64,000 nucleotides of DNA, from contig NZ_JAJFAX010000001.1 in NCBI RefSeq assembly GCF_019710475.1, forward strand, positions 310,001 through 374,000, written 5' to 3'. Position 1 is the stretch's first letter; each line of letters begins with the position of its first letter. Shown piece after piece: positions 2,004-55,866 of this stretch. Under the pieces are notes generated by a model. It saw nothing but the letters and a program-made list of their open reading frames with translations, was not told where the DNA came from and did no database searches. The DNA is from Glycomyces sp. TRM65418 (GTDB lineage Bacteria > Actinomycetota > Actinomycetes > Mycobacteriales > Micromonosporaceae). Made by a program: the position numbers and the translations under genes.

Positions 2004-4241
2004 CTACTTGATGTCGAAGACGACGACTTCGGGGTCGTGGTCGGAGACGCCGTAGTTGCCGTACGCGGGCTCCTCGCCGAACTCGTACGCGTCGGCCGGG
2101 TAGTCCGAGTTGATGTGCGCGGACACCGCGGACTCGACCTCGCGCAGCAGCTGCGGGGACGCCCACATCTGGTCGAGCGTCTGGGCCTGGCCCATGTAGG
2201 TGTACGTGTAGGCGGCCTCGGGGTGGTCCTCCAGCATGTAGTCGTACAGGTTGGTCAGACCCGAGTCCTCGTAGAGGCCGGCGAGCTGGTCGGACGGGCC
2301 GACCCAGTCCCGAGCGATCCGCTGGCCCTCCGCGAACGGGTCGTCCGGGCGCGGGAAGACGTTGAGGTCGCCGCCCGCCAGGACCTTCGCCTTGCGATTG
2401 TGGTCGAGGATCGCGGCGCTGACGGCCGCGAGGTAGTTCGCCTGCTCGGTGCGGTGCAGCACGCGGTTGTTCGGGCCCGAGGAGAAGTGGTTGTTGATCA
2501 GGAAGATCTCCTCCACGCTGCGGCCGTGCTTGTCCTTGAGGTGGAACTTCGCGACCTGCGTCGGGCGACTGAAGACGTCGTAGCCGTTGCAGGCGTAGAC
2601 GCCCGAGCCGGTGCACCGGTCGAGGACCTCCTGCGGCAGCGCCGCGTTGAGGGCCTTCGGGTTCTCGACGTCGGCGTTGATCTCGTCGGCCTCGGTCGGG
2701 TACTCGACCTCCGGCTCGGCCCCGAACACCGGGTCCCAGCCCTTCACCTTCGACAGGCCGGCCAGCTTGGGCTGGTACAGGAAGCCGGTCATGATGCCGC
2801 GGGTGTCGGCCGAGTCGAGGTCGCCGACCGCGTTGTAGGTCGGGCCGCCGTGCTCGGCGATGAGGAGCGCCAGCTCCTGCAGCGAGTCGGGCGCGCCGTC
2901 GCGGTGCTCGTTCGCGTCGCCGGTGTTCACCAGGTCGCACACGAGGCGGTCCTGGCCGAGGTCGGAGCGCTTCGTCCACTCGGGATTGACCGAGCACACG
3001 TCCTGGGCCTCGCCCTCCTGGGTCATGAGGATCGCCGGGCTGTGCAGGTCGTCCACGATCTGGGCGGCCTCGCGCTGCATGCGGGCCTCGTACTCGTCGT
3101 AAGCGGCGGGCACGTAGTCGAAGGGCGGGTTCACGTTGCCCTCGGGGTCCTCCGGGTCGGTGCAGCCGGGGTCGCCGGCGAAGTCGCACTCGGAGTTCGG
3201 GTTGTCGCGGGTGTCGTAGAGGTTCTCGATGTTGTACGAGGCGACCGCGGCCTCGTGCTTGCCCGCGGGCTCGACCGGCTCGTTCTCGGCCGGCTCCAGG
3301 CCGCCTTCGAGCGCCAGGTCCTCGGCGACCTCGATGGCGTACTTCGCGAACGAGAGGTAGACGCCGCCGGTGTTCGCCTCGGTGATGACGTCGAAGGTCT
3401 TGGCCGGGGCGATGATCGACTGCGTGTCGCCCTCGGTCGCCCGGATGCCCAGGTCGCCCATGACGAAGAGGTAGCCGTTGCCGTCGTCGAACGCGCCCTC
3501 GACGGTGTCGAGCGGATGGGCGTCGCGGAAGGCGCGGCCCGCGTAGCCGTCCTGCTGGGCCGCTGCGCTGTCGCCGCGCATGGCCCAGACCTCGCCGCCG
3601 CTGGAGTACACGTCGCGCCCGGCGGTGACCACCGAGTCGGCCGGGACGGTCATCTGCATGCCGAGGTGGCGGCGGAAGTACTCCTTCGACGCCGTGGCGT
3701 CGTTCGGCGGATCGACTTCGACCGCGGCCACCTCGGCGAGCGGGTCGAGGCCCGTCTCGACCACGTCGTAGACGAAGGTGGAGCCGCCGCTGAACTGGAT
3801 GTTCCCGAAGTAGGAGCCGACCACGGCGCGCACCACGATCTCGTCGCCCACCGTCACGGTCCAGTTCGCGCCCAGCTCGGACTGCGCGGGCGAGCCGTTG
3901 AGGGTGCGGACCGTCGTGTACCGGTTGTTGAAGACGAAGATGCCGTCCGAGGAGTTCGGGTCGCCGTCCGTCGCGTCGGCGCGCTCCTGGAGGAAGAAGC
4001 CCCGGTTGCCGGAGGGGTCCAGGGTCTCCTGGGTGACGACGCCCTGCACGTACACCGTCTTGCCGGCCAGGGGGGAGGAGAAGTCGGTGTCGCCGTCGGC
4101 GATGGAGCCCTGGACTTCGCCGATGTGGACGATGTCGGTCTGGGCGTTGGCCTGCGAGGCGAACGCGAATCCGGCGGCGCCGATGAGCACCGCGCTCGCG
4201 GCCGCGGCCGCGAGTCTGGCTCGTCGTCTGAGGGACTGCAC
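2004..4241 (-). CDS. Secreted ExeM/NucH-like extracellular endonuclease
   Basis: Predicted secreted nuclease of the ExeM/NucH type, with the endonuclease/exonuclease/phosphatase fold. The GTG at 4241 is the best start: it has an upstream GGAG and begins an Arg-rich n-region (VQSLRRRARL), a hydrophobic core and an ANA cleavage site near residue 34. An ATG at 4319 in the same frame would put 26 poorly fitting residues before the signal peptide. An OB-fold-like region (IGEVQGS, VYVQGVVTQ) follows the signal. The catalytic domain shows YNIENLY near residue 331, a QEGEAQD segment, GDLN near 624 and SDHDPEVVV at the C-terminus, the usual metal and active-site motifs. The likely role is extracellular DNA or nucleotide breakdown for phosphate and nucleosides. 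The gene stands alone between two hairpins. The exact substrate, DNA versus RNA or phosphodiester, is inferred from the family. Confidence 0.8.
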   Translation of the reverse strand: MQSLRRRARLAAAAASAVLIGAAGFAFASQANAQTDIVHIGEVQGSIADGDTDFSSPLAGKTVYVQGVVTQETLDPSGNRGFFLQERADATDGDPNSSDGIFVFNNRYTTVRTLNGSPAQSELGANWTVTVGDEIVVRAVVGSYFGNIQFSGGSTFVYDVVETGLDPLAEVAAVEVDPPNDATASKEYFRRHLGMQMTVPADSVVTAGRDVYSSGGEVWAMRGDSAAAQQDGYAGRAFRDAHPLDTVEGAFDDGNGYLFVMGDLGIRATEGDTQSIIAPAKTFDVITEANTGGVYLSFAKYAIEVAEDLALEGGLEPAENEPVEPAGKHEAAVASYNIENLYDTRDNPNSECDFAGDPGCTDPEDPEGNVNPPFDYVPAAYDEYEARMQREAAQIVDDLHSPAILMTQEGEAQDVCSVNPEWTKRSDLGQDRLVCDLVNTGDANEHRDGAPDSLQELALLIAEHGGPTYNAVGDLDSADTRGIMTGFLYQPKLAGLSKVKGWDPVFGAEPEVEYPTEADEINADVENPKALNAALPQEVLDRCTGSGVYACNGYDVFSRPTQVAKFHLKDKHGRSVEEIFLINNHFSSGPNNRVLHRTEQANYLAAVSAAILDHNRKAKVLAGGDLNVFPRPDDPFAEGQRIARDWVGPSDQLAGLYEDSGLTNLYDYMLEDHPEAAYTYTYMGQAQTLDQMWASPQLLREVESAVSAHINSDYPADAYEFGEEPAYGNYGVSDHDPEVVVFDIK

Positions 4242-4408
4242 AGGAAGACTCCAATGCTGTTCGTATGGGACCTCGGCGCGCGAAGGCGCCTGAGGCGGGA
4301 TGACGGGGGCGGTCTTCACTCAACCGCAACCGCGGGTCGAAAGCAAGGCTTCCAAGTGAATTCCTCGTATCATCCCATGTCTCAGTGCGGAGGGTCCCGG
4401 ACGACGGA

Positions 4409-6993: not shown

Positions 6994-7068
6994 GGTCGAT
7001 TAGCTCAGCGGGAGAGCACTCGCTTCACACGCGAGGGGTCACTGGTTCGATCCCAGTATCGACCACCA
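6994..7068 (+). tRNA. tRNA-Val (anticodon CAC)
   Basis: The full cloverleaf can be drawn: acceptor GGTCGAT / ATCGACC, D arm GCTC-AGCGGGA-GAGC, anticodon arm CTCGC-TTCACAC-GCGAG with anticodon CAC, five-base variable loop, and T arm ACTGG-TTCGATC-CCAGT. CCA is encoded at 7066-7068. It reads GTG codons. It is followed at once by a strong terminator and a tyrosine recombinase gene, the usual arrangement of a tRNA used as an integration site. Confidence 0.97.
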
Positions 7069-7070
7069 GC

Positions 7071-7110
7071 ACAGAGAGGGCCCGGCGGATATCCGCCGGG
7101 CCCTCTCTGT
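7071..7110 (+). terminator. Terminator of tRNA-Val
   Basis: Perfect 40-bp palindrome, two 20-bp arms starting ACAGAGAGGGCCC, directly after the encoded CCA. It would fold into a very stable hairpin ending the tRNA transcript. Confidence 0.8.
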
Positions 7111-7136
7111 CGCCAAATCCGGGGCCATTGCCGGTG

Positions 7137-7997
7137 TTATTCGGCCTCTCGGAACTCCTCCTCAAAGACCTCGTCGAGCAGGTTCGCGCCCGTCGTGATG
7201 ACCGGCCTGAGCTGGTGCCGGTAGACGGTCCTCGTGGTCGACGTCTTCTTGTGTCCCACCAGGTCAGCGATGAGCTGATCGCTCGCGCCCTGGTCCGACA
7301 TCCACGACACGAAGGTGTGGCGCAGTTCCCGCGGGGCCCATTGCCCTTCGATCTTCGCCTCTTTCACGATGGCTTGGAAGAATCGGCGCACGTTGCGGGC
7401 GTCCTTCACGGTGTCGTTGCGAGTGCCGAAGACGTAGACGATGCCCTCGTGCTTGTGACCATTGCGCTTGCGCGACTCGACTTGCTTCGCCGAGTAGTCG
7501 AGGAGAATCGTCACCACGTAGGACGGGAGGGCGATCGTGCGGCGGCTCTTCTCGTTCTTGGTGTCCCCCTTCTTGCGGACCGAGCGCCACACCTCGACGT
7601 GCGGTGGCAGGTCTTCCTTGTGGACCCGCCCGCAGGTGCACCGCTCACCCTTGACGGGGTTCAGATGCGTGTGCTCCCGCTTCAGCGGCCGGGCCTCCTC
7701 GGTGCGGACCCCGGTGAACATCGACAGCGCCACGTAGGCATGGAGCCACGGCTCCCGGCTCTGCCGGCACCCGCGCACGAGGGCCCTCCCCTGCTCAAGG
7801 GTCATGGCCTTGCTCGGACGCCCGTCCTTGCCTAGCGGCGCTTCCACCAGCTCGGCGACATTCCGCGCGACCTTGTTGCGCCGCTGGGCGAAGCGGATCA
7901 CGCGGCGCAGGGTTCCGAGGATGCGTCCGAGGTAGCTGGTCGAGACCTTCGTCTTCAGGCTGGCTAAAGGCTGTCCCGTAAGGATGTGATGGTCCAC
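7137..7997 (-). pseudogene. Tyrosine recombinase (phage/ICE integrase), N-terminus replaced by IS-A
   Basis: C-terminal part of a tyrosine site-specific recombinase. It keeps part of the core-binding domain (YLGRILGTLRRVIRFAQRRN) and the catalytic domain: Arg in MFTGVRTEEAR, the Lys region NEKSRRTIALP, the RELRHTFVS box, the LVGHKKTS box, and the nucleophile region RTVYRHQLRP. Family members are usually 370-420 residues; about 100 N-terminal residues are gone because IS-A inserted at about 7964. The first 11 or so codons of the present open frame (MDHHILTGQPL) come from the IS terminus, which happens to supply an ATG. The gene ends 69 bp from the tRNA-Val gene, consistent with integration at that tRNA. 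It is a close paralogue of the damaged recombinase at 12618-13238. It is probably inactive. Confidence 0.8.
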
Positions 7998-8022
7998 CGA
8001 GGTTGAGGCCGTGGCCGTGTGT

Positions 8023-8529
8023 TTAGAGGATCCGGCGCATGCAGGTGCGGGGCCAGCGGTCGAGGCCGTGGGCGGCTTCCCGGTCGCGGATCTTGCGGAG
8101 GCCTGGGGTCAGGCTGTTCGCCGGGATCGGTTCGAACCCGCAGCGGGCGTAGTAGGGGGCGTTCCAGGCGACCTCGGTGAAGGTGGTGAGGGTCAGCGCC
8201 TCCATGTCCTGGGCGGCGGCATGCCCGGCGGCGTGCTCGATCAGGCGGCGGCCGATGCGGCGGTGCGCCCAGTCCGGGTGGACCGAGACCTGCTCGATGT
8301 GCAGGGCGCCGTCCACCGGCTCGGCGATGAGGTAAGCGACCGGCCGGTCCTCGCCATCGACGGCGACCCAGGCCAGCCCCGACCGCTGGAAGCGGGCGAG
8401 GTCGTCCAGGCTGAGCGGTTCGTCGTCAGCGATCGGGGACATCCCGATAGGCCGGAAGGATTCGCCCGCGGCGCGTTCGATGTCCCGGCATCGGGGCAGG
8501 TCCGTAATGGAGGCCGATCGGATACGCAT
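8023..8529 (-). CDS. GNAT family N-acetyltransferase, passenger in IS-A
   Basis: 168-residue acetyl-CoA-dependent N-acetyltransferase. Strand beta4 (ALHIEQVSVHPDWAHRRIGRRLI) carries the acetyl-CoA-binding motif A with the RRIGRRL form of Q/RxxGxG/A; motif B contains WNAPYYARCGFEPI near residues 125-140. Length and order fit single-domain GNATs. It lies between the left inverted repeat of IS-A and the transposase, in the opposite orientation to the transposase, so it would be moved with the element. It starts with ATG at 8529, 90 bp from the transposase start, leaving room for divergent promoters. The acceptor substrate is unknown. The frame is intact, while the transposase beside it is split, suggesting selection on the cargo or recent acquisition. 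Confidence 0.85.
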   Translation of the reverse strand: MRIRSASITDLPRCRDIERAAGESFRPIGMSPIADDEPLSLDDLARFQRSGLAWVAVDGEDRPVAYLIAEPVDGALHIEQVSVHPDWAHRRIGRRLIEHAAGHAAAQDMEALTLTTFTEVAWNAPYYARCGFEPIPANSLTPGLRKIRDREAAHGLDRWPRTCMRRIL

Positions 8530-8619
8530 CGGGCCAGTGTGCCCGACCGGTCCGGCGACGGCAAGCAGGTTTGATGCTGTCGCGTTATTAGTTGCGGCGC
8601 AACGGTTTAGGATGTCCGC

Positions 8620-9383
8620 GTGGGTGTGGTGACCGCTGCCGAGGAGCGCTGGATCGAACCGTTCTCGGGGCTGCGGCCCCGGGTGTTCGCCCGGCTGGTG
8701 CGCCAGCTCGAACGCGAGGGCCCGACGCGGCGCGTCGGGGCCGCCCCTGGAGCCTGCCGCTGACCGACCGGGTGCTGCTGGTGGCCGCCTACTGGCGCAC
8801 CAACCTCACCCTTCGCCAGCTCGCGCCCCTGTTCGGGATCTCGAAGTCCGCTTCCGACCGCATCATCGACGACCTGGGCCCCAAGCTCGCGCTGCGGCCG
8901 CGTAAGCGGTTCGCGCCGGGCACCGTGCTCATCGTTGACGGCACCCTGGTGCCCACGCGGGACCGGTCGGTCAGCGCGCCGAGCAAGAACTACCGCTACT
9001 CGACCAATCACCAGGTCGTCATCGACGCCGACACGCAGCTGGTGGTCACCGTGGGCACGCCGCTGCCGGGGAACCGCAACGACTGCAAGGCGTTCGCCGG
9101 ATCCGGGGCCGAGCACGCCTGCCGCAATCATGATGTGATCGGTGATGGCGGCCACACCGCCATCAGCGCGATCATTCCCCACCGCCATCAGCCCGGGCAG
9201 GCGCTGCCAGCTTGGAAGGAGGAGTACAACGCCTCCCACCGGCACGTCCGCGTCCGCGTCGAGCACACTTTCGCACGGATGAAAACCTGGAAGATCCTAC
9301 GGGACTGCCGCCTGCGAGGCGACGGGGTCGCGATCGCGATGAGCGGTATCGCCCGTCTTCACAACCTTGCCCGCACCGCCTGA
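8620..9383 (+). pseudogene. IS-A transposase, IS5 family; two frames joined at a slippery GGGCCCG
   Basis: The N-terminal part starts with GTG at 8620 (VGVVTAAEERWIEPFSG) and reads in one frame to a TGA at 8761. The DDE part continues in the -1 frame from about 8724 (DAARRGRPWSLPLTDRV) to the TGA at 9381-9383. It includes an HTH (LRQLAPLFGISKSASDRIID), the first Asp in VLIVDGTLVP, a second in IGDGG, and the final Glu in VRVEHTFARMK. The switch occurs at 8718-8724, which reads G_GGC_CCG, a canonical X_XXY_YYZ heptamer in the zero frame. Shifting there gives a product of the same length as the IS-B transposase. So the gene is either a simple one-base-deletion pseudogene or uses -1 frameshifting, as reported for some IS5-family (IS427-group) elements. 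The sequence alone does not decide. Confidence 0.75.
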
Positions 9384-9470
9384 TCCCCAGCGAGTCACCG
9401 CGGACGCCAGCGCGATCGAATCCCCAGGACCAATAACGGGACAACCTTTAGCGGCGGAGCCTTTGCGGCG

Positions 9471-10118
9471 TCAGATGCGGCCGGTCTCGTGGGCCCACAT
9501 GGCGACTTCGACGCGGTTTCGGGCGCCGAGCTTTCGCATGAGGCTGGCGAGATGGGCTTTGACGGTGCTTGGGGTGATATGGAGCTCGCTGGCGATCTCA
9601 TTGTTAGTGCGGCCTTGCGCTACAGGCACGAGGACTTCCTCCTCGCGGGCGGTGAGCGGTTCTATCGGCTGCCTGGGTGGTGAGGTCTGCGCATGGGCGA
9701 ACGCTGCGAGCAGTCGGACAGTCACGCTGGGTGCGATCAGTGCGTTTCCGGCGGCGGCGGCGTGGATGGCCTGGGTCAGCAGGGCGGGTCCGGCGTCCTT
9801 GAGCAGGAACCCGCGGGCGCCGGCTTTGAGCGCTCCGTGGACATTCTCGTCAAGGTCGAAGGTGGTGATGACCACGATCGGCAGGGGGTCGGTGACGTCG
9901 GGGCCTGCGAGTCGTCGGGTGGCTTCGATGCCGTCCATCAGCGGCATTCGGATGTCGAACAGGCCGACGTCGGGGCGCAATTGGAGCGCCAGGCGGACTG
10001 CCTCGCGCCCGTCCGCGGCCGCGCCGATCACTTCGATGTCGGGCTGGGCATCGAGCAGCATCGTCAGCCCGGTGCGCACGATGGGCTGATCGTCGGCGAT
10101 GAGGACCCTGATGCTCAT
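9471..10118 (-). CDS. Two-component response regulator, NarL/LuxR family
   Basis: 215-residue response regulator. The receiver domain (residues 1-120) has the acidic pair D9-D10, phosphoacceptor D55 in LFDIRMPLMDG and the conserved Lys in GFLLKD. A C-terminal LuxR-type HTH (LTAREEEVLVPVAQGRTNNEIASELHI..STVKAHLASLMRKLGA, residues about 150-205) binds DNA. Its ATG overlaps the stop of the histidine kinase at 10115 by 4 bp, so the two are translationally coupled and form one signalling pair. IS-A ends only about 18 bp beyond the stop codon. The downstream target may be the DUF6326-like membrane protein divergently encoded at 11428; that is inference from position. Confidence 0.92.
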   Translation of the reverse strand: MSIRVLIADDQPIVRTGLTMLLDAQPDIEVIGAAADGREAVRLALQLRPDVGLFDIRMPLMDGIEATRRLAGPDVTDPLPIVVITTFDLDENVHGALKAGARGFLLKDAGPALLTQAIHAAAAGNALIAPSVTVRLLAAFAHAQTSPPRQPIEPLTAREEEVLVPVAQGRTNNEIASELHITPSTVKAHLASLMRKLGARNRVEVAMWAHETGRI

Positions 10119-11266
10119 CGTGGCGTCCCGGTTCGGGGCAGGACCGCCTCTACCCGCCAGCCCCGCTCGGCGGCGGGACCTGCGTGGAAGGTGCCGCCGA
10201 GCAGTGAGACGCGTTCGCGCATGCCCACCAGGCCGTAGCCTGCTGGGGCGCGGCCGCCAGCGGCGGAGCCGTCGTCGTCGATGGTCAGCCGTACCTGGTC
10301 GGCGTCACCGGTGACGGCGACGGTGACCTGGGTCGCGTGGCGGGCGTGCCGTCGAGCGTTGGTGATGGACTCCTGGGCCAGGCGGTAGATCGCGGCCCCG
10401 ACCGCCGGGCTGAGGTCGTCGAACTCGCCGAATAGCGTCACCTCGACGCAGGGACCCGTCTGGCCATCGGTGGCGAGCTGCTCGACTTCGGCCACGCCGG
10501 GCTGCGGCGCGAAGCCGGTGTCCTGTGAGGCGCGGAGCACGCCGACGATGGCGCGCAGCTCGCCGAGGGTGCGGGTCGCTGCGTCCTCGATGACGGCCAG
10601 GGCCTCGATGGCCCCCTCGGGGTGGGAGGCCGCGATGGCACGTCCTGCTTGGGCCTGGATGGTGATGCCCGAGACGTGGTGGGCAACGGTGTCGTGGAGT
10701 TCGCGAGCGAGCTGTTCGCGTTCGCGGGCCTTGGCTTGGTCGATGTCGCGGATGCGGATCTTCGCGCGATAGCGGATCGCGGCGCCGAGCGCGGCGGCGA
10801 ACAGGAAGAACGCATATCCTGCGGCCGCCTCCACCGGGGTGGCGGGGTCGGCGCCGTGGGTGGTGAGGATGGCCAGCCAGAGCAGGATGACGCCGAGGCC
10901 GCTTGCGGCTTCCCGTCCGGAACCCCAGCGGAACAGGGCGTAGGCCAGGATCAGCACCGCGAGGGTGCTGTTCAGCATGGTGCCTTGCGTCCCGGTGAGG
11001 ATTCTGACGAGGTCGACGATCGTCAACGTGCCGCAGGAGACCGCAACCGCGACGAGCGGGTGCGTGCGTCGCCACAGCAGGGGGCCGAGGACCGCGAGCA
11101 CCGCGAGTAGCTGCAGCGGGCGTGGCGCCAAGTCCTGGCGAAGCACCACTTCCACCACCGACCAGCAGATCAGTACTGCGACCAAGACCCAGTCCCGCGG
11201 GCCCCGGCCCGGGGCATTCGTGGGTCGAGGTTCGGCCCACAGCGAGCGGAGTGCGTTGGTGGCCAT
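10115..11266 (-). CDS. Two-component sensor histidine kinase, NarL-partner (HisKA_3) type
   Basis: 383-residue membrane sensor kinase. The N-terminal half holds about five to six membrane helices (residues 25-165) without a large external domain, typical of the short actinobacterial DesK-like sensors. A cytoplasmic linker (IRDIDQAKAREREQLA) leads to the HisKA_3 dimerisation box, in which H191 of ARELHDTVAHHVSG is the phosphoacceptor. A HATPase domain follows with the N-box (YRLAQESITNARRHA) and G-box (GYGLVGMRERVSLLGG). It overlaps the response regulator start by 4 bp. The signal sensed is unknown. Confidence 0.92.
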   Translation of the reverse strand: MATNALRSLWAEPRPTNAPGRGPRDWVLVAVLICWSVVEVVLRQDLAPRPLQLLAVLAVLGPLLWRRTHPLVAVAVSCGTLTIVDLVRILTGTQGTMLNSTLAVLILAYALFRWGSGREAASGLGVILLWLAILTTHGADPATPVEAAAGYAFFLFAAALGAAIRYRAKIRIRDIDQAKAREREQLARELHDTVAHHVSGITIQAQAGRAIAASHPEGAIEALAVIEDAATRTLGELRAIVGVLRASQDTGFAPQPGVAEVEQLATDGQTGPCVEVTLFGEFDDLSPAVGAAIYRLAQESITNARRHARHATQVTVAVTGDADQVRLTIDDDGSAAGGRAPAGYGLVGMRERVSLLGGTFHAGPAAERGWRVEAVLPRTGTPR

Positions 11267-11427
11267 CTGATCAGCCTAGGCGGCCCGCGTGCTCGGTGTA
11301 TCCGCCGAAAGTACAAGAGCTCAGCTGTGCCAGTGGCCAGGTCGAACCAGGCTCCGCGGCTGATGTGCCCGCCGCCGGCATCTGTGAAGGTGGAAGCACC
11401 CAACCAATCAAGCCAGGGAGCATTGTG

Positions 11428-11952
11428 ATGAGAACGCCTCAATCCCACACCGCACCAGAGAATCCGCCGTCCCAGAACACGCTGGAAGATCTGCGCATGC
11501 CCGTGCAGGCCAAGCTCGCAGCAGCATGGACCAGCTTCATGTTCCTCTACATCTACGTCGACTACCTCGCCCTGTACAAGCCCGGCTTCCTCGACGACCT
11601 CCTGGCCGGCACCGTCCACGAGTTCGACACCGGCCCAACCTTCGTCGCCGTCGCGCTCACGCTCATGGCCATCCCGATCCTCATGATCCTGCTCTCCGCG
11701 ACACTGCCAGCCCGTGTCAACCGCACCATCAACCTCGTCGTAGCAACGCTCTACATCCCCGTCTCGATGTTCAACGCGGCAGGGGAGGCTTGGACCTACT
11801 CCTACTTCTACGGCCTCTCCATCGGACTCGAGGTGCTGCTCCTGGCCTTCATCCTGCGCTCCGCCTGGACCTGGCCACGCCGCGCCGCATCACCGGCGAC
11901 CCTGGCAGCCAGCCTCGACAGCGAGCCACTCCGCAGGCCGCAGCAGGCGTGA
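11428..11952 (+). CDS. DUF6326-like integral membrane protein
   Basis: 174-residue membrane protein with four predicted helices. After a polar N-terminus the block LEDLRMPVQAKLAAAWTSFM and the helix MFLYIYVDYLALYKPGFLDDL are seen, followed by a second helix with LTLMAIPILMILLSATLPA, a third (TINLVVATLYIPVSMFNAAG) and a fourth (FYGLSIGLEVLLLAFILRSAW). This pattern recalls the DUF6326 family; no function is known. The start is ATG 11428 (or the adjoining GTG 11425), with GGGAG at 11416-11420. It is divergent from the two-component pair at 9471-11266, separated by 161 bp that should hold both promoters, so control by that response regulator is plausible. Confidence 0.7.
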   Translation: MRTPQSHTAPENPPSQNTLEDLRMPVQAKLAAAWTSFMFLYIYVDYLALYKPGFLDDLLAGTVHEFDTGPTFVAVALTLMAIPILMILLSATLPARVNRTINLVVATLYIPVSMFNAAGEAWTYSYFYGLSIGLEVLLLAFILRSAWTWPRRAASPATLAASLDSEPLRRPQQA

Positions 11953-11985
11953 CTGCCCCGCAGTTCAGCCCAGATCGGGCATGGC

Positions 11986-12120
11986 ATGCCCCAGAATGTC
12001 CGGCCGGTAGCCGAAGACGCAGTCACCTGGGCAGCCGTCAAGACTCACGGCAAAGATGTCGTGATCGAGCTGGCCGCGAGGCTCATTACCGAACACAAGG
12101 CAAGAGCCAGAATCGGGTAA
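11986..12120 (+). CDS. Small unrecognised ORF, possibly a gene remnant
   Basis: A 44-residue frame beginning MPQNVRPVAEDAVTWAAV and ending ITEHKARARIG. Its composition looks like real coding sequence (charged helix, no codon bias breaks), and the frame is open back to the stop of the preceding gene at 11952, so it may be the 3' end of a lost gene. No ribosome site is evident. No family is recognised. Confidence 0.3.
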   Translation: MPQNVRPVAEDAVTWAAVKTHGKDVVIELAARLITEHKARARIG

Positions 12121-12244
12121 CCGGGATGAGGACAGCCTCACCCCGCAGTCGCAGCCGACCCAGCTACGAGCAACCTCTCGACATAGCCCGCCCAGGCATC
12201 GCAGGGTGCCTGGGGCGACAACTGCGATTCCCTGGACCCTCGAC

Positions 12245-12548
12245 TCAGCTACTGCTGGCCTTCAGCAGGCGATAGATCGTCTTGCGGCTGACCCCGGACT
12301 CCTCAACAAGCCGCAGCCGTGGCACCCCGGCCCGGGCAGCGACTAGCAGCCGCTCCAGCTCATCGACATCGAGGCGGTCGCGAACCGCTCGCGGCTTGCC
12401 GTTGCGGGGAGCCATCGCGAGTTGGAACAACTGAGGCACCGGTTCGGGTCGCTCATCGGCCGAGATGGCATCGATGAGATCCCTGAGGGCGGGTGAGCGA
12501 GGCTCTGACCTGCAGTGGAGAGTTGTAGTAAGAGCCAGTAAGGTCCAC
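12245..12548 (-). pseudogene. Small HTH DNA-binding protein, one-base frameshift
   Basis: About 100 residues when repaired. The start region (GTG 12548, VDLTGSYYNSPLQVR) and the body (LRDLIDAISADE...AVRDRLDVDELERLLVAA, then SGVSRKTIYRLLKA) lie in frames one base apart; the break is near 12490-12500. It is homologous throughout to the intact gene at 21776-22072, which shares the YYNS start, the AxRDRL block and a C-terminal resolvase-like HTH. It is probably a DNA-binding accessory protein of an integrated element. It lies 70 bp beyond the damaged recombinase at 12618. Confidence 0.6.
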
Positions 12549-12554
12549 CAGCAA

Positions 12555-12583
12555 AAAGCCCCGGCCAGATGAGCCGGGGCTTT
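12555..12583 (-). terminator. Terminator after the second recombinase relic
   Basis: 11-bp perfect stem AAAGCCCCGGC / GCCGGGGCTTT with a 7-nt loop and flanking A/T runs, 35 bp downstream of the minus-strand recombinase that ends at 12618. Confidence 0.8.
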
Positions 12584-12617
12584 CGCGTAGGAGCCAAAAA
12601 GGGAGCCAATCGGCCTC

Positions 12618-13238
12618 TCAGCTGGGCTCCTGCAAGGTCTCACCGAACACCCCATCCAGCAGATCGGCGCCCTTGGTGATGACCGGTCGAAGCTGGTGTC
12701 GATAGACCGTCCGCGTGGTCGAGGTCTTCTTATGGCCGACGAGATCGGCGATCAGCTCTTCGGCCGCGCCCTGGTCGGACATCCACGATACGAAGGTATG
12801 CCGCAGCTCCCGCGGTGTCCAGCTCCCTTCGACCTCCGCGTCCTCGACGATGGTCTGGAAGTAGCGCCGCACGTTGCCCGCATCCTTGACCGTGTCGTTC
12901 CGCGTGCCGAAGACGTACACGATGCGCTCATGCCCATGACCGTTCCTCTCGCGGGATTCCGCCTGCTTGGTCCTGTATCCGGCGAGGATCTCGACCACGT
13001 AACCGGGCAGGGCGATCGTGCGGCGACTCTTCTCGTTCTTCGTCTCGCCCTTCTTGCGGACCGAGCGCCAGACCTCCACGTGCGCCGGAAGCGTCTCCCG
13101 ATGCCAGCGCCCGCACGAGCACTCCTCCCCGCTACCGGGTTCAGGTGCGTGTGCTCCCACTTCAACGGCCGCGCCTCCTCGGTCCGGACGCCGGTGAACA
13201 TCGACAGCGCCACGTAGGCGTAGATCCAGGGTTCCCGG
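12618..13238 (-). pseudogene. Second tyrosine recombinase, truncated by IS-B and frameshifted
   Basis: C-terminal half of a tyrosine recombinase closely related to the one at 7137: same MFTGVRTEEARPLK, NEKSRRTIALPGYVV, RELRHTFVSWMSDQG, LVGHKKTSTTRTVYRHQLRP motifs. It starts abruptly at SREPWIYAY, where IS-B has inserted at 13239, about 63 codons nearer the C-terminus than the IS-A insertion in the other recombinase. A one-base deletion in a G run near 13127-13131 separates the HTHLNPVAG and GEECSCGRWH segments, whose homologue is unbroken in the first copy. It is therefore doubly inactivated. It marks a second related integrative element or a duplication of the first. Confidence 0.85.
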
Positions 13239-13311
13239 CTAAAGGCTGTCCCGGAAGTTGGTGAGTCGATTCTCCGGTGACGTGACCCGATGGATGTGAG
13301 AACCTGCGGGA

Positions 13312-13647
13312 ATGCTGATTCGGGAGCACAAGGGTGTCCAGTACGCCATCGAGGTCGGTTACCTCGGTGATGAGGAGGCATGGATGCTGGAGCTGAGTGA
13401 GGCGCGGCATGCCCCCGAGTCCTGGAGCGAGAGCTTCAAGACGGTTCCCTGGTTGCCAGGTGAGGCGTTCCTGATGGCATTGGTTCCTGACGAAGACCTT
13501 GATCGGGAGCCGAGTCTCCACCTGTTCGGTCCCAACGGTAAGGAGCTTCCCCACGCGGTCATGCTGTGGTTCATGGAGGTCGTTGCTGAAGAGGTCGCCC
13601 GCTGTCGTGCCAACCTTGAACAGGCTCGGCCGTCCGACCCTGCTTGA
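13312..13647 (+). CDS. Uncharacterised 111-residue protein, passenger in IS-B
   Basis: No family recognised. The product is small, acidic and soluble (MLIREHKGVQYAIEVGYLG...). It is rich in Trp, Glu and Leu, with a likely mixed alpha/beta N-terminal half and a C-terminal helix (AVMLWFMEVVAEEVARCRANLE). In size and composition it resembles small immunity-type proteins, but no diagnostic motif supports this. ATG 13312 follows GCGGGA. It lies between the left inverted repeat of IS-B and the transposase start 41 bp downstream, so it is internal cargo of the element. Confidence 0.7.
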   Translation: MLIREHKGVQYAIEVGYLGDEEAWMLELSEARHAPESWSESFKTVPWLPGEAFLMALVPDEDLDREPSLHLFGPNGKELPHAVMLWFMEVVAEEVARCRANLEQARPSDPA

Positions 13648-13688
13648 GAGCAACGCAATGCCGTTGGGGCGCATGGGATCATACTCGT

Positions 13689-14456
13689 GTGGCAGGTGTG
13701 ATCAGCGCGGCGGAAGAGACCATGATCGAGCTGTCCAGCGGGCTGTCCGCCCGGCAAGTCGCCAAGCTCATCCGGCAGCTGCGTGCCGAAGGCGCCGACC
13801 CGGCGCTCAAGGGCCGCCCTTGGAAGCTCGGTTTCGAGGACCGGGTGCTGGTCGCGACCTATTGGCGCACCAACCTCACGATGCGGCAGATCGCGGTCCT
13901 GTTCGGCACTTCGAAGTCCGCCACCGACCGGATCATCGACGACCTTGCCCCGAAGCTCGCGCTTCGGCCGCGGAAGCGATATGCGCCCGAGACCGTGCTC
14001 ATCGTCGACGGCACCCTGGTCCCGACCAGGGACCACCAGGTCGCGGCGCCATCGAAGAACTACCGGTACTCGACCAACCACCAGGTGGTCATCCACGCCG
14101 ACACCCAGCTCGTGGTCGCGGTCGGGACGACGCTGCCGGGCAACCGCAACGATTGCAAGGCCTTCGGTGAGTCCGGAGTCGACCACGCCACTCGCACCGC
14201 GACCGTGATCGCCGACGGCGGCTATCCCGGCACGCGCGCGGTGATCCCGCACCGTCGCAAGCATAAGGACGAGCCGCTGGTCGAGTGGAAAGAAGAGCAC
14301 AACGCCTGCCACCGGCGAGTGCGCGCCCGCATCGAGCACACCTTCGCGGCGATGAAGCACTGGAAGACCATGCGTGATTGCCGCCTACGAGGGACCGGCG
14401 TTGCCGAGGCCGTGTCCGGCATCGCCCGTCTCCACAACCTCACCCTCGCCAGCTAA
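13689..14456 (+). CDS. IS-B transposase, IS5 family, DDE_Tnp_4 type
   Basis: 255-residue transposase in a single frame from the GTG at 13689 (VAGVISAAEETMIELSSG). The N-terminal HTH (MRQIAVLFGTSKSATDRIID) precedes a DDE catalytic domain: first Asp in TVLIVDGTLVPTRD, then RYSTNHQVV, LPGNRNDCKAF, second Asp in IADGGYPG, and Glu in RARIEHTFAAMKHWK near residue 220. The C-terminus (GIARLHNLTLAS) is close to those of IS-A and of the relic at 18087. It catalyses cut-and-paste or copy movement of IS-B between its 22-bp ends. All catalytic residues are present, so the element may be active. Confidence 0.9.
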   Translation: MAGVISAAEETMIELSSGLSARQVAKLIRQLRAEGADPALKGRPWKLGFEDRVLVATYWRTNLTMRQIAVLFGTSKSATDRIIDDLAPKLALRPRKRYAPETVLIVDGTLVPTRDHQVAAPSKNYRYSTNHQVVIHADTQLVVAVGTTLPGNRNDCKAFGESGVDHATRTATVIADGGYPGTRAVIPHRRKHKDEPLVEWKEEHNACHRRVRARIEHTFAAMKHWKTMRDCRLRGTGVAEAVSGIARLHNLTLAS

Positions 14457-14563
14457 AACACCGGCCGGACACCACGCCCACACCCAAAATCAACTTCCGG
14501 GACAGCCCTTAGTGCCGGAGGTGGTGGTGGCTTGACAGTGCGGTTTCCGACCGTTACCGTTCG

Positions 14564-16440: not shown

Positions 16441-17360
16441 GAGCTTGTTTCAACGTGCCTGAGGTCTGTTGCGGTGCAACAGATGTCGTGAGGACATGGC
16501 AGGTCCTGGACCGAGACAGCAGGAGAGCCCCTGGTAGAACAGCAGGTGCTGAAATCCGTTGTCTACCAGGAGCTCTCGTGCTTTTCTACCCTGCCGCGCT
16601 ACCCCTGTCCACCTCGACCCTCAACCGCGTGGCCGGCCTCATCCGCACCCACCGCAAGACCATCGGCTCCCGCTGGCGAGTCCTCGACCCCGGCACCCAG
16701 GCACTGCTCACCCTCGCCTACCTGCGTAAAGGCGAAGCACTACGGATCCTCGCCGCCGGGTTCGGCATCTCGGCCGCGACCGCATGGCGACGCACCCGCG
16801 AGACCATCCTCCTGCTCGCCGCCCGCGCCCCGGGGATCCGAGACGCCCTGCAGCATGCGAAGTGCTCCGGTGCGGCCTTCGTGATCCTCGACGGCACCCT
16901 GGTCCACATCGACCGCAACCAGATCGACCAGCCCTTCTACTCCGGCAAACACCAGCGGCACGGGATGAATCTCCAGGCCATCGCCGATGCGCGAGGGAAC
17001 CTGCTGTGGGTCTCCGGGGCGATCCGCGGCTCGATCCACGACACCGCTGCCGCCCGGACCTGGCAGATCCCCAGGCTCCTGCACGAGCACGGCCTGTTCG
17101 CCCTGGGCGACAAGGGCTACGACGGACTCGACCGAGACCTGGTGGTCACGCCGTTCAAGGGGAAGGGCAAGCCGGAGTGGCAGAAGGAGTACAACCGCCT
17201 CCACACCCGGCTCCGCGGCCCCGGCGAACGAATGTTCTCCCAGCTCAAGAAATGGTCGATCTTCGCCCAGCTCCGCTGCGACCCCGCCTGGACCACCCAC
17301 ATCGCCAAAGCCCTCCAGGTCCTCAACGACTACGAGCGCTCAGCAGGTTGAAACAAGCTC
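16441..17360 (+). mobile_element. IS-C: 920-bp insertion sequence with 14-bp inverted repeats and 3-bp duplication
   Basis: Inverted repeats GAGCTTGTTTCAAC (16441-16454) and its exact complement at 17347-17360 bound the element. The trinucleotide ACT is duplicated at 16438-16440 and 17361-17363. Excision restores an older transposase frame, which confirms the borders to the base. One transposase gene fills the element. Confidence 0.92.
16578..17351 (+). CDS. IS-C transposase, IS5 family (DDE_Tnp_4-like)
   Basis: 257-residue transposase from GTG 16578 (VLFYPAALPLST), with the ribosome-site-like CAGGAG 8-13 bases upstream. N-terminal HTH region (LRILAAGFGISAATAWRRTRE), first Asp in FVILDGTLVHID, conserved GKHQRHGMNLQAI, GSIHDTAAAR, second Asp in FALGDKGYDGL, and Glu in RGPGERMFSQLKKW. 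The stop codon lies inside the right inverted repeat. Fragments of the same subfamily lie at 15287-15628 and 38070-38286, so this IS group has been active in the genome. The copy is intact. Confidence 0.9.
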   Translation: MLFYPAALPLSTSTLNRVAGLIRTHRKTIGSRWRVLDPGTQALLTLAYLRKGEALRILAAGFGISAATAWRRTRETILLLAARAPGIRDALQHAKCSGAAFVILDGTLVHIDRNQIDQPFYSGKHQRHGMNLQAIADARGNLLWVSGAIRGSIHDTAAARTWQIPRLLHEHGLFALGDKGYDGLDRDLVVTPFKGKGKPEWQKEYNRLHTRLRGPGERMFSQLKKWSIFAQLRCDPAWTTHIAKALQVLNDYERSAG

Positions 17361-18086: not shown

Positions 18087-18814
18087 TCAGGCGGTGCGGG
18101 CGAGATTGTGGAGACTGGCGATACCGCTCATCGCGATCGCGCCGCCTTCGCCGCGCAGGCGGCAGTCTCGCAAGATCTTCCAGGTCTTCATCCGCGCGAA
18201 AGCGTGCTCGACCCGTGCCCTGACCTCCCGGTGCGAGGCATTGTGCTCGGCTTTCCAGGCCGGTAGGTCGGCGACGGTGCGGGATGATCGCGCTGGTGGC
18301 GATGTAGCCGCCATCGCCGATCACGTTGTGATTGCGGCAGGCGTGCTCGGCACCGGAATCGGCGAACGCGATGCAGTCGTTGCGGTTGCCCGGAAGCGGC
18401 GCGCCCACGGTGACCACCAGTGGCGTATCGGCGTCGATGACGACTTGGTGGTTGGTCGAGTACCTGTAGTTCTTGCTCGGCGCGGCGATCGACCGGTCCC
18501 GGGTGGGCACCAGGGTGCCGTCGACGATGAGGACGGTGCCGGGCGCGAACCGCTTGCGCAGCCGCAACGCCACCTTCGGTCCCAGGTCGTCGATGATGCG
18601 GTCGGCGGCGGACTTCGAGACACCGAACAGGGGCGCGAGCTGGCGCAGGGTTAGATTGGTCCGCCAGTAGGCGGCCAGGCACAGGCGCCAGGGCCGGCCC
18701 CGGCGCGGCGGCACCTTCGCGCTCCAACTGCCGCACCAGCCAGGCGAACACCCTGGGTCGCAGCCCCGAGAACGGCTCGATCCAGCACTCCTCGGCAGCC
18801 GTCACCACGCCCAC
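18087..18814 (-). pseudogene. Degenerate IS5-family transposase related to IS-A
   Basis: Start GTG 18814 (VGVVTAAEECWIEPFSGLRPRVF) is nearly identical to the IS-A transposase N-terminus. The frame shifts near 18725, a segment matching LTDRVLLV of IS-A is missing, and a second frameshift near 18270 separates the central DDE part (VLIVDGTLVP, IGDGGYIA) from the C-terminus (VRARVEHAFARMK to GIASLHNLARTA). No IS-A-type right end is found beyond the stop. It is a dead relic. Confidence 0.85.
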
Positions 18815-18856
18815 CAGGACATCCTAAACCGTTGGGACACAAGTAGAAACGGTCCA

Positions 18857-55230: not shown

Positions 55231-55819
55231 CGTCTCGGACTCGCCGCCGTCGGCCTCCTGGAGTCGCTCATGACCGCCAAGGTCGTCGACGACGCCACCG
55301 ACACCGGTTCGAACAAGACCCGTGAAGCCGCGGGCCAGGGCATCGGCAACATCCTCGTCGGCTGCTTCGGCGGCATGGCCGGCTGCGCGATGATCGGCCA
55401 GACGATGATCAACGTCAAGGCCGGGGCCCGCTCGCGGCTCTCGACCTTCTCGGCCGGGTTCTTCCTGCTCATCCTCGTGGCCGTCTTCGGCGGCGTGGTC
55501 GCTCAGATCCCCATGGCCGCGCTCGTGGCCGTCATGGTCTTCGTGTCCGCGGTGACCTTCGACTGGCACTCCGTCAAGCCCGAGACCCTCCGCAAGATGC
55601 CGGTCTCCGAAACGATCACCGTCGCCGTCACCGTCGCCGTCACCGTCGCCACCCACAACCTCGCCATCGGCGTCCTCGCCGGCGTCATCGTCGCGATGGT
55701 CGCCTTCGCCCGCAAGGTCGCCCACCTGGTCGAGGTCACCAGCGTCCAAGAAGGTCGAGATCGTCGGCCTCAACCGCCCGAGCGCGAGGCTCCACGGCGA
55801 ACTCACCGGCGGCCGCTAA
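55231..55819 (+). pseudogene. SulP-family anion transporter, internal fragment
   Basis: LGLAAVGLLESLMTAKVVDD, NKTREAAGQGIGNILVGCFGG, CAMIGQTMINVKAGARSRLS and IPMAALVAVMVFVSAVTFDW are classic SulP (SLC26/bicarbonate or sulfate transporter) blocks of the core and gate helices. The N-terminal half is missing; a TAG sits in frame just before 55231. Near 55743 the frame changes, and VEIVGLNRPSARLHGELTGGR, the end of the STAS domain, follows after a deletion of the rest of that domain, up to the TAA at 55817. Confidence 0.8.
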
Positions 55820-55866
55820 AGGCTGTCCGACGAGCTCGGGCCGCAACGGTCGAACGGTCGGACAGC
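55816..55866. repeat. IS-end-like 13-mer and inverted repeat after the SulP relic
   Basis: CTAAAGGCTGTCC at 55816-55828 equals the left end of IS-A and IS-B for 13 bases (14 with the preceding G). The GCTGTCCGAC at 55822-55831 pairs with GTCGGACAGC at 55857-55866. It may be a solo IS end or mini-element, or just a terminator hairpin. Confidence 0.5.

Follow-up and report, generated by a model that had tools for sequence, protein, structure and literature searches.

Two related elements in the window

The stretch of DNA analysed here (the window, 64,000 nucleotides (nt) of contig NZ_JAJFAX010000001.1 of Glycomyces sp. TRM65418, positions 310,001 to 374,000; part of a 5.09-Mb genome) contains two related insertion sequences (ISs), IS-A and IS-B. 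Each carries a gene of its own between its left end and its DDE transposase gene, namely a minus-strand GNAT acetyltransferase gene in IS-A and a plus-strand open reading frame (ORF) of 111 amino acids (aa) in IS-B. The transposases are 72% alike in protein and 74% alike in DNA (753 columns). An earlier note on this DNA had described this arrangement correctly and had taken the two for transporter ISs (tISs) with exchangeable cargo. The features, in window coordinates, are these:

7965..7966: probable target duplication TA left of IS-A (partner at 9449-9450), as judged from a relative's empty site
7967..9448, plus strand: IS-A proper, 1482 bp, with ends of two subtypes
7967..7978, plus strand: outer left terminus of IS-A, AAGGCTGTCCCG, then TAAGG (the right end goes on TTATTGG)
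8004..8573, minus strand: GNAT block of IS-A, matching a GNAT locus in genome G151 that lacks IS ends (86% over 571 columns)
8023..8529, minus strand: IS-A cargo P0001, GNAT acetyltransferase, 168 aa (PF00583, 1.2e-12)
8574..8590, plus strand: decayed left end inside IS-A, holding TGCTGTCGCGTTATTAG (short relatives, GGCTGTCCCGTTATTG)
8620..9384, plus strand: IS-A transposase, with a disrupted frame in the N-terminal part; relatives with an intact frame are known
9437..9448, minus strand: IS-A right terminus, of the subtype shared with the decayed inner end
13242..14509, plus strand: IS-B proper, 1268 bp
13242..13260, plus strand: IS-B left inverted repeat (arms 13239-13260 and 14491-14512, 22 nt, 95% complementary)
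13312..13647, plus strand: IS-B cargo P0002, 111 aa, unmatched in Pfam, NCBIfam, PADLOC and PHROGs under the thresholds applied
13689..14456, plus strand: IS-B transposase P0003, read from 13692, the GTG start at 13689 being placed by eye; DDE_Tnp_1 and HTH_Tnp_4
14491..14509, minus strand: IS-B right inverted repeat, pairing with the left arm

The termini are present as the earlier note gave them: both left termini read CTAAAGGCTGTCCCG, at 7964 and 13239, and on the minus strand the right termini read CTAAAGGTTGTCCCG, ending at 9451 (IS-A), and CTAAGGGCTGTCCCG, ending at 14512 (IS-B). With up to two mismatches, the family terminus CTAARGGCTGTCCCG is matched five times in the 64 kb against an expectation of 0.18, a count reached by none of 100 shuffles, and four of the five matches are the ends of IS-A and IS-B. 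The fifth, a solitary match with two mismatches at 55816-55830, may be a solo end or chance. Over the first 14 nt of the repeats, 13 positions agree in IS-B (0 of 300 random stretches reach this) and 12 in IS-A (4 of 300), the control for this comparison being a resampled first-order chain rather than an exact shuffle. From the terminus counts and the random stretches, an origin of the termini by chance was rejected for IS-B and most relatives; it may still account for weak end pairs.

The most plausible reading of the outer CTA and TAG is a CTAG target whose TA was duplicated. Once the target TA is set aside, the extents proposed earlier (7963-9452 and 13239-14512) narrow to 7967-9448 and 13242-14509. 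The borders of IS-B are backed by a 22-nt repeat whose arms agree through GGAAGTTG; those of IS-A fare less well, as its outer ends agree just through TGTCCCG and a few nt, the left end (...CCCGTAAGG) and the right end (...CCCGTTATTGG) diverging soon after CCCG.

Judged by its sequence, IS-B is a clean IS112-like (IS5-type) element. P0003 scores above the Pfam cut-offs for DDE_Tnp_1 and HTH_Tnp_4, its best NCBIfam model is NF033581 (transpos_IS5_4; 103.3 bits, under the cut-off of 140), and public records assign its relatives to the IS5 or IS112 family. The closest named relatives are from G. tenuis (92%, over a part) and Glycomyces sp. NRRL B-16210 (84%). Two loci of the genus are letter-identical to named Glycomyces records, L068 to L077 (G. 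harbinensis) and L061 to L079 (NRRL B-16210). IS-B had no match in a phage collection, and a phage origin was rejected on this absence.

Survey of relatives and their cargo

We fetched 85 loci by transposase similarity, of which 83 are distinct (L059/L081 and L060/L078 are duplicates), and read all of them under one end-pair rule; 12 were hand-picked from 60 listed Streptomyces plasmid matches (124 records). An end pair is present in 45 of the 83. Of these, 32 are short elements, in which -6 to 71 nt separate left end and transposase, and 13 have a gene in a gap of 434-790 nt; no gap lies between 72 and 433 nt. The earlier statement that typical members hold only a transposase is thus borne out (32/45). 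The remaining 38 loci lack an end pair under the rule, including IS-A, L003 and L007, whose ends were located separately; L005 and L006 have no end pair and neither was used.

Listing the genes between left end and transposase in these relatives, the check that the earlier note had proposed, yields 14 unlike cargoes with both ends, no two of which match each other by blastp at E 0.01: the GNAT of IS-A, the P0002 family, a glyoxalase, a 138-aa ORF, AAA_28, SUFU, ORFs of about 172, 139, 158, 189 and 190 aa, a second GNAT (L172), and ORFs of 144 aa (L177) and 97 aa (L175). A fifteenth, in the G. tenuis locus L111 (right end not found), is an AAA_28 protein 28% alike to the first. Cargo ORFs with no family match were chosen by length and place, or from annotation (L175, L177), and some may be misjudged. 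Nine cargoes are divergent from the transposase and five co-directional. P0002 and the cargoes of L007, L056, L057, L058, L061, L063 and L068 gave nothing above the curated cut-offs of Pfam and NCBIfam; PADLOC gave weak ATPase matches at most (10 proteins) and PHROGs no match (6 proteins). The SUFU-domain gene lies at 1834-2421 of L118, from Micromonospora orduensis; SUFU proteins are often immunity proteins of polymorphic toxins.

The host genome itself holds four cargo elements, IS-A, IS-B and one each on contigs 34 and 37, along with one short cargo-less element (L003). The contig 34 element carries a divergent glyoxalase-fold gene (PF13669, 9.6e-12), and the contig 37 element, whose transposase is only part-length, a divergent 138-aa ORF that looks membrane-like by eye. 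A glyoxalase-like fold, which is that of the cargo in L002, is shared by FosA-type enzymes.

TA adjoins both ends in all 15 end-defined units listed, and CTA...TAG flanks 12 of them. The GNAT element of Streptomyces sp. NA03103 (L172, 857-2327) is flanked by CACGAGCTCG and CGAGCTCGTG, which are reverse complements of each other; its target was therefore a palindrome with TA at its centre.

Exchange of cargo on similar backbones

The place of the cargo can be read from alignments of L172 with short elements. Compared with L167 and L169, L172 shows a single 595-nt insert behind the first 36 nt of left end, and compared with L174 a 598-nt insert behind the first 28; with L170 the alignment is less clean, so that the insert is clear in three of four comparisons. 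In relatives, about 20-36 nt of left end precede the cargo, and a few tens of nucleotides separate it from the transposase.

Elements with different cargo can be closely similar in their transposase and right end. The G004 element with the 189-aa cargo is 82% alike to three Streptomyces P0002 elements, the AAA_28 element 85% to the SUFU element, and IS-B 80% to the glyoxalase element, in each case from just before the transposase onward only. Different genes on nearly the same transposase and right end show that, as far as these alignments reach, cargo is replaced more quickly than the backbone changes. The ratio of nonsynonymous to synonymous substitutions (dN/dS, NG86) is 0.16, 0.25 and 0.31 in three P0002 pairs and 0.28 in the AAA_28 pair (0.20 for the transposases of that pair); the tested cargoes are under purifying selection and kept as proteins.

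In the transposase tree (65 rows, leaving out loci L167-L178), the clade of P0003 (support 100/99) has nine rows, six with both ends and none with a short left end found. A second clade (L063, L020, L021 and L023; 100/98) carries cargo in all four rows, and IS-A, L068, L118 and the pair L089/L093 are placed among short or undefined elements. The cargo label needs six changes on the tree; shuffled labels need 15.9, and none of 500 shuffles comes as low, a result to which near copies contribute. This pattern suggests that cargo was probably gained more than once.

Mobility of whole units

The joined flanks of 11 elements were searched, seven against 22 genomes of the genus and four against 300 of the family; at most about 13 (genus) or about two (family) candidates were scored per genome, so that negatives are weak. 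For the 172-aa element an empty site was found: G157 spans the junction with 89% of 303 nt alike (90.9% over 1609 columns with 800-nt flanks) and holds a single TA (TTAG). G166 (81%, CTAA, again a single TA) and G163 (76%) span the same junction. Among the matches listed, at least eight genomes (78-84%) have an uninterrupted copy of the gene into which the M. arida element inserted; in G173 this gene is 80% alike over 186 columns, the TA itself being absent.

Similar whole units are also found at unrelated sites. The element of M. arida agrees with that of M. phaseoli at 94.4% of 1509 columns, and two Streptomyces P0002 plasmid elements agree at 92.3% of 1273 columns, with unlike flanks within 1 kb in both cases. 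In relatives, then, these comparisons show a unit of two matched termini, one DDE transposase and another gene that has inserted as a whole at a single-TA site. The mobilisation of cargo that the earlier note inferred, and the empty sites by which it had proposed to fix the borders, are thus found in relatives; for IS-A and IS-B the search of the 22 genus genomes, with part of the candidates scored, gave no junction-spanning match among those listed.

IS-A and the origin of cargo genes

IS-A is the weaker case: a short element with a GNAT gene and an outer, second left end of another subtype beside it, given its mismatched ends, the relic of a left end inside it, the broken transposase frame, and the likeness of 8004-8573 to the G151 GNAT locus, which ends at that relic. 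In its nearest relative in the transposase tree (L060 = L078, one locus, where no right end was found), 45-51 nt lie between left end and transposase. The earlier note had named two findings that would speak against it, short copies with the left end just upstream of the transposase, and relatives with the passenger genes at the same place but no transposase or inverted repeats. For IS-A the former is seen in part, in L060/L078 and in the inner relic, and GNAT homologues elsewhere, without IS ends, count against IS-A too.

At E up to 1e-15, GNAT homologues are present in 108 of the 200 family genomes searched, the host included, where the IS-A copy is the only one. Those of the genus (L027-L055) are 66-85% alike in protein to that of IS-A, and with one mismatch allowed no IS end pair lies within about 1.5 kb of any of these 29 other loci; L044 has one terminus-like match. 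The flanks of L027 are unlike those of the other GNAT loci; from these comparisons, the gene seems to relocate independently of this IS. A tblastx comparison of GNAT neighbours was set aside: beyond the GNAT gene itself, its matches were scattered and of low identity.

Relatives of P0002 occupy the same slot in the Streptomyces plasmid elements L020, L021 and L023, and two truncated plasmid loci (L019, L022) retain the left end, the P0002 relative and the first transposase codons. Other relatives (L015-L018, L024, L025) have no transposase match in the fetched stretch, and in L015 no left end was found. The P0002 tree has too few rows and long branches and fits separate capture in Glycomyces and Streptomyces as well as a shared one, a search of viral contigs gave three pattern matches and no relatives, and the single-sequence structure model has a mean predicted local distance difference test score (pLDDT) of 57.2.

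At L132 (G108:C9:163500-172500, minus orientation, 2388-4370), a transposase fragment, an S-adenosylmethionine (SAM) methyltransferase gene and a second transposase of the same clade lie in a row. This array is possibly a fossil of cargo capture with decayed ends, and is not used as proof.

Genomic neighbourhood

IS-A and IS-B each adjoin a C-terminal integrase fragment whose continuation is absent on the other side. The left flank of IS-B matches the related integrase of G128 and G151 up to 13240 and is followed by other sequence; that of IS-A matches the same integrases up to 7944 and 7859; the right flank of neither matches the G128 or G151 integrase. Adjacent deletion or rearrangement thus seems likely at both elements, and their right borders consequently rest on the repeats. 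The first fragment follows a tRNA-Val gene (6994-7068; together 6994-7997) and belongs to a tyrosine integrase; the second, 5.5 kb further at 12618-13217, is 78-89% alike to it. That each is cut at an IS left end suggests a tRNA-borne genomic island reshaped by IS-A and IS-B.

Two further transposase genes lie nearby: a degenerate relative of that of IS-A (18087-18835, minus strand) in two pieces, with no end pair under the survey rule and an acetyltransferase-type gene, by eye, in the DNA just upstream; and a distant IS5-type transposase (16701-17279), 28% alike to P0003.

Transporter ISs and alternative explanations

IS-B and, with lower certainty, IS-A are very probably transporter ISs of the actinobacterial IS112-like group of IS5-type elements. 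A single transposase gene lies between paired termini with no second flanking IS, and two complete flanking copies, as in a composite transposon, were not found. Genes unrelated to transposition lie inside the termini (GNAT, glyoxalase, AAA_28 and SUFU, by Pfam), and in the relatives tested the cargo moves with the element. The single-TA sites of G157 and G166 and the TA at all 15 listed units indicate a 2-bp TA duplication, as in the IS427-like group of the IS5 family. As a description of IS-B and its kin, the earlier "transporter IS with exchangeable cargo" therefore holds in unit plan, differing genes and, as seen in relatives, mobility of the unit; for IS-A it is weakened by the findings given above. 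Taken together, the elements appear to take up single bacterial genes, exchange them and spread them.

Several observations weigh against this reading. Most cargo functions are fold names alone or have no assignment, and IS-A combines a broken transposase frame with mismatched outer ends. For the three weakest end pairs (H158, P2a and P2b), 30-43 of 300 random stretches equal the likeness over the first 14 nt; for IS-A, H189, AAAph and P2c, 2-5 of 300 do so. Three of the nine rows of the P0003 clade (L058, L062 and L064) have no left end found, in the second clade made up of cargo elements three of the four rows were retrieved via their cargo, and the alignments of L177, the AAA_28 and SUFU elements and L068 with short elements are broken up, leaving the insertion point unfixed. 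For nine of the 11 joined flanks, IS-A and IS-B included, no match among those listed passes the junction by more than about 13 nt, a weak negative.

The extra genes could instead serve the element's own transposition or regulation. P0002-family genes do stand directly before the transposase in IS-B, L020, L021 and L023 (with 7 nt between the two annotated genes in L023), and in the truncated L019 and L022 behind an intact or near-intact left end. However, 32 of the 45 end-defined distinct loci are too short for an accessory gene, unlike genes fill the slot on backbones 82% alike, and P0002 relatives occur without a transposase match in the fetched stretch, making this explanation very unlikely. 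Remnants of composite transposons, in which two ISs flanked a gene, the left copy was reduced to its end and the unit no longer moved, also seem improbable. The row of transposase fragment, methyltransferase and second transposase in L132 would fit them, but no left-end candidate with fewer than four mismatches is found in that array, and the empty site and the similar units at unrelated sites show mobility after acquisition. The idea survives as a way in only, not as the present state.

A stronger case can be made, at somewhat less than even chances, that IS-A is not a unit at all: a short broken IS would lie beside a GNAT gene, and the outer left end would be the solo remnant of another IS. 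The mismatched ends, the relic at 8574, the broken frame, the likeness to the G151 locus stopping there and the absence of an IS end pair at all 29 other GNAT loci fit such a juxtaposition. On the other side, the outer flanks of IS-A are CTA and TAG, as in 12 of the 15 listed units; the H190 element of G. harbinensis (L077), with unlike inner ends, has the same plan and belongs to the same clade; and an unlike GNAT gene is the cargo of the independent L172, which has good ends.

If IS-A and IS-B are indeed transporter ISs, genes would enter once a left end has become placed on the far side of a gene adjoining the element. This distal end might derive from a second IS copy that lost its middle and right end, or be a stray left end; with the old inner end lost, the transposase would then use the distal one. 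IS-A resembles such a capture, its outer end, GNAT gene and decayed old end being still visible. Some cargoes may benefit the host, as purifying selection and the acetyltransferase, glyoxalase fold, AAA_28 and SUFU cargoes hint, and the unit would then be kept in the population. A true exchange slot, with one clade always carrying cargo and refilled with unlike small genes partly because these protect or benefit the host (as detoxifying, immunity-like or resistance-like functions), is a tentative and rather doubtful extension.

Comparison with known systems

Transporter ISs are known from the IS66 family, for example ISPa75 with fosZ (PMC12888890). That article credits the idea to Siguier et al. 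2009 for the IS1595 family and reports passengers in 7 of 25 Pseudomonas IS66 elements; the term is also named in PMC3129680 and PMC9330008. No tIS of the IS112-like IS5 group was found in the open-access literature, as far as its accessible text goes, which is limited evidence with ISfinder outside the scope. IS112 of Streptomyces albus (PMC3937824) is related: L174, annotated as IS112 family, has a transposase 67% alike to P0003 and the same terminal sequence, but at 887 bp it is short, with 46 nt between left end and transposase.

As in the IS66 tISs, one IS with its own termini holds a transposase and an unrelated gene, probably from the host species, and several members carry passengers. 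The elements described here, by contrast, are IS5-type and IS112-like; they have a single transposase gene and a TA duplication, hold one slot for a gene at their left end, and visibly exchange cargo on near-identical backbones. Passenger acquisition by ISs is mostly visible only afterwards; here one slot with many cargoes, short sisters, similar backbones with different cargo and an apparently half-finished capture (IS-A) make routes of capture and exchange directly comparable. This suggests that single genes, several of them without a named family, travel between actinobacterial species on elements annotated as plain IS5-type transposases. If the slot is truly one of exchange, these elements would be one-gene vehicles, a minimal counterpart of integron cassettes that does without a dedicated recombinase.

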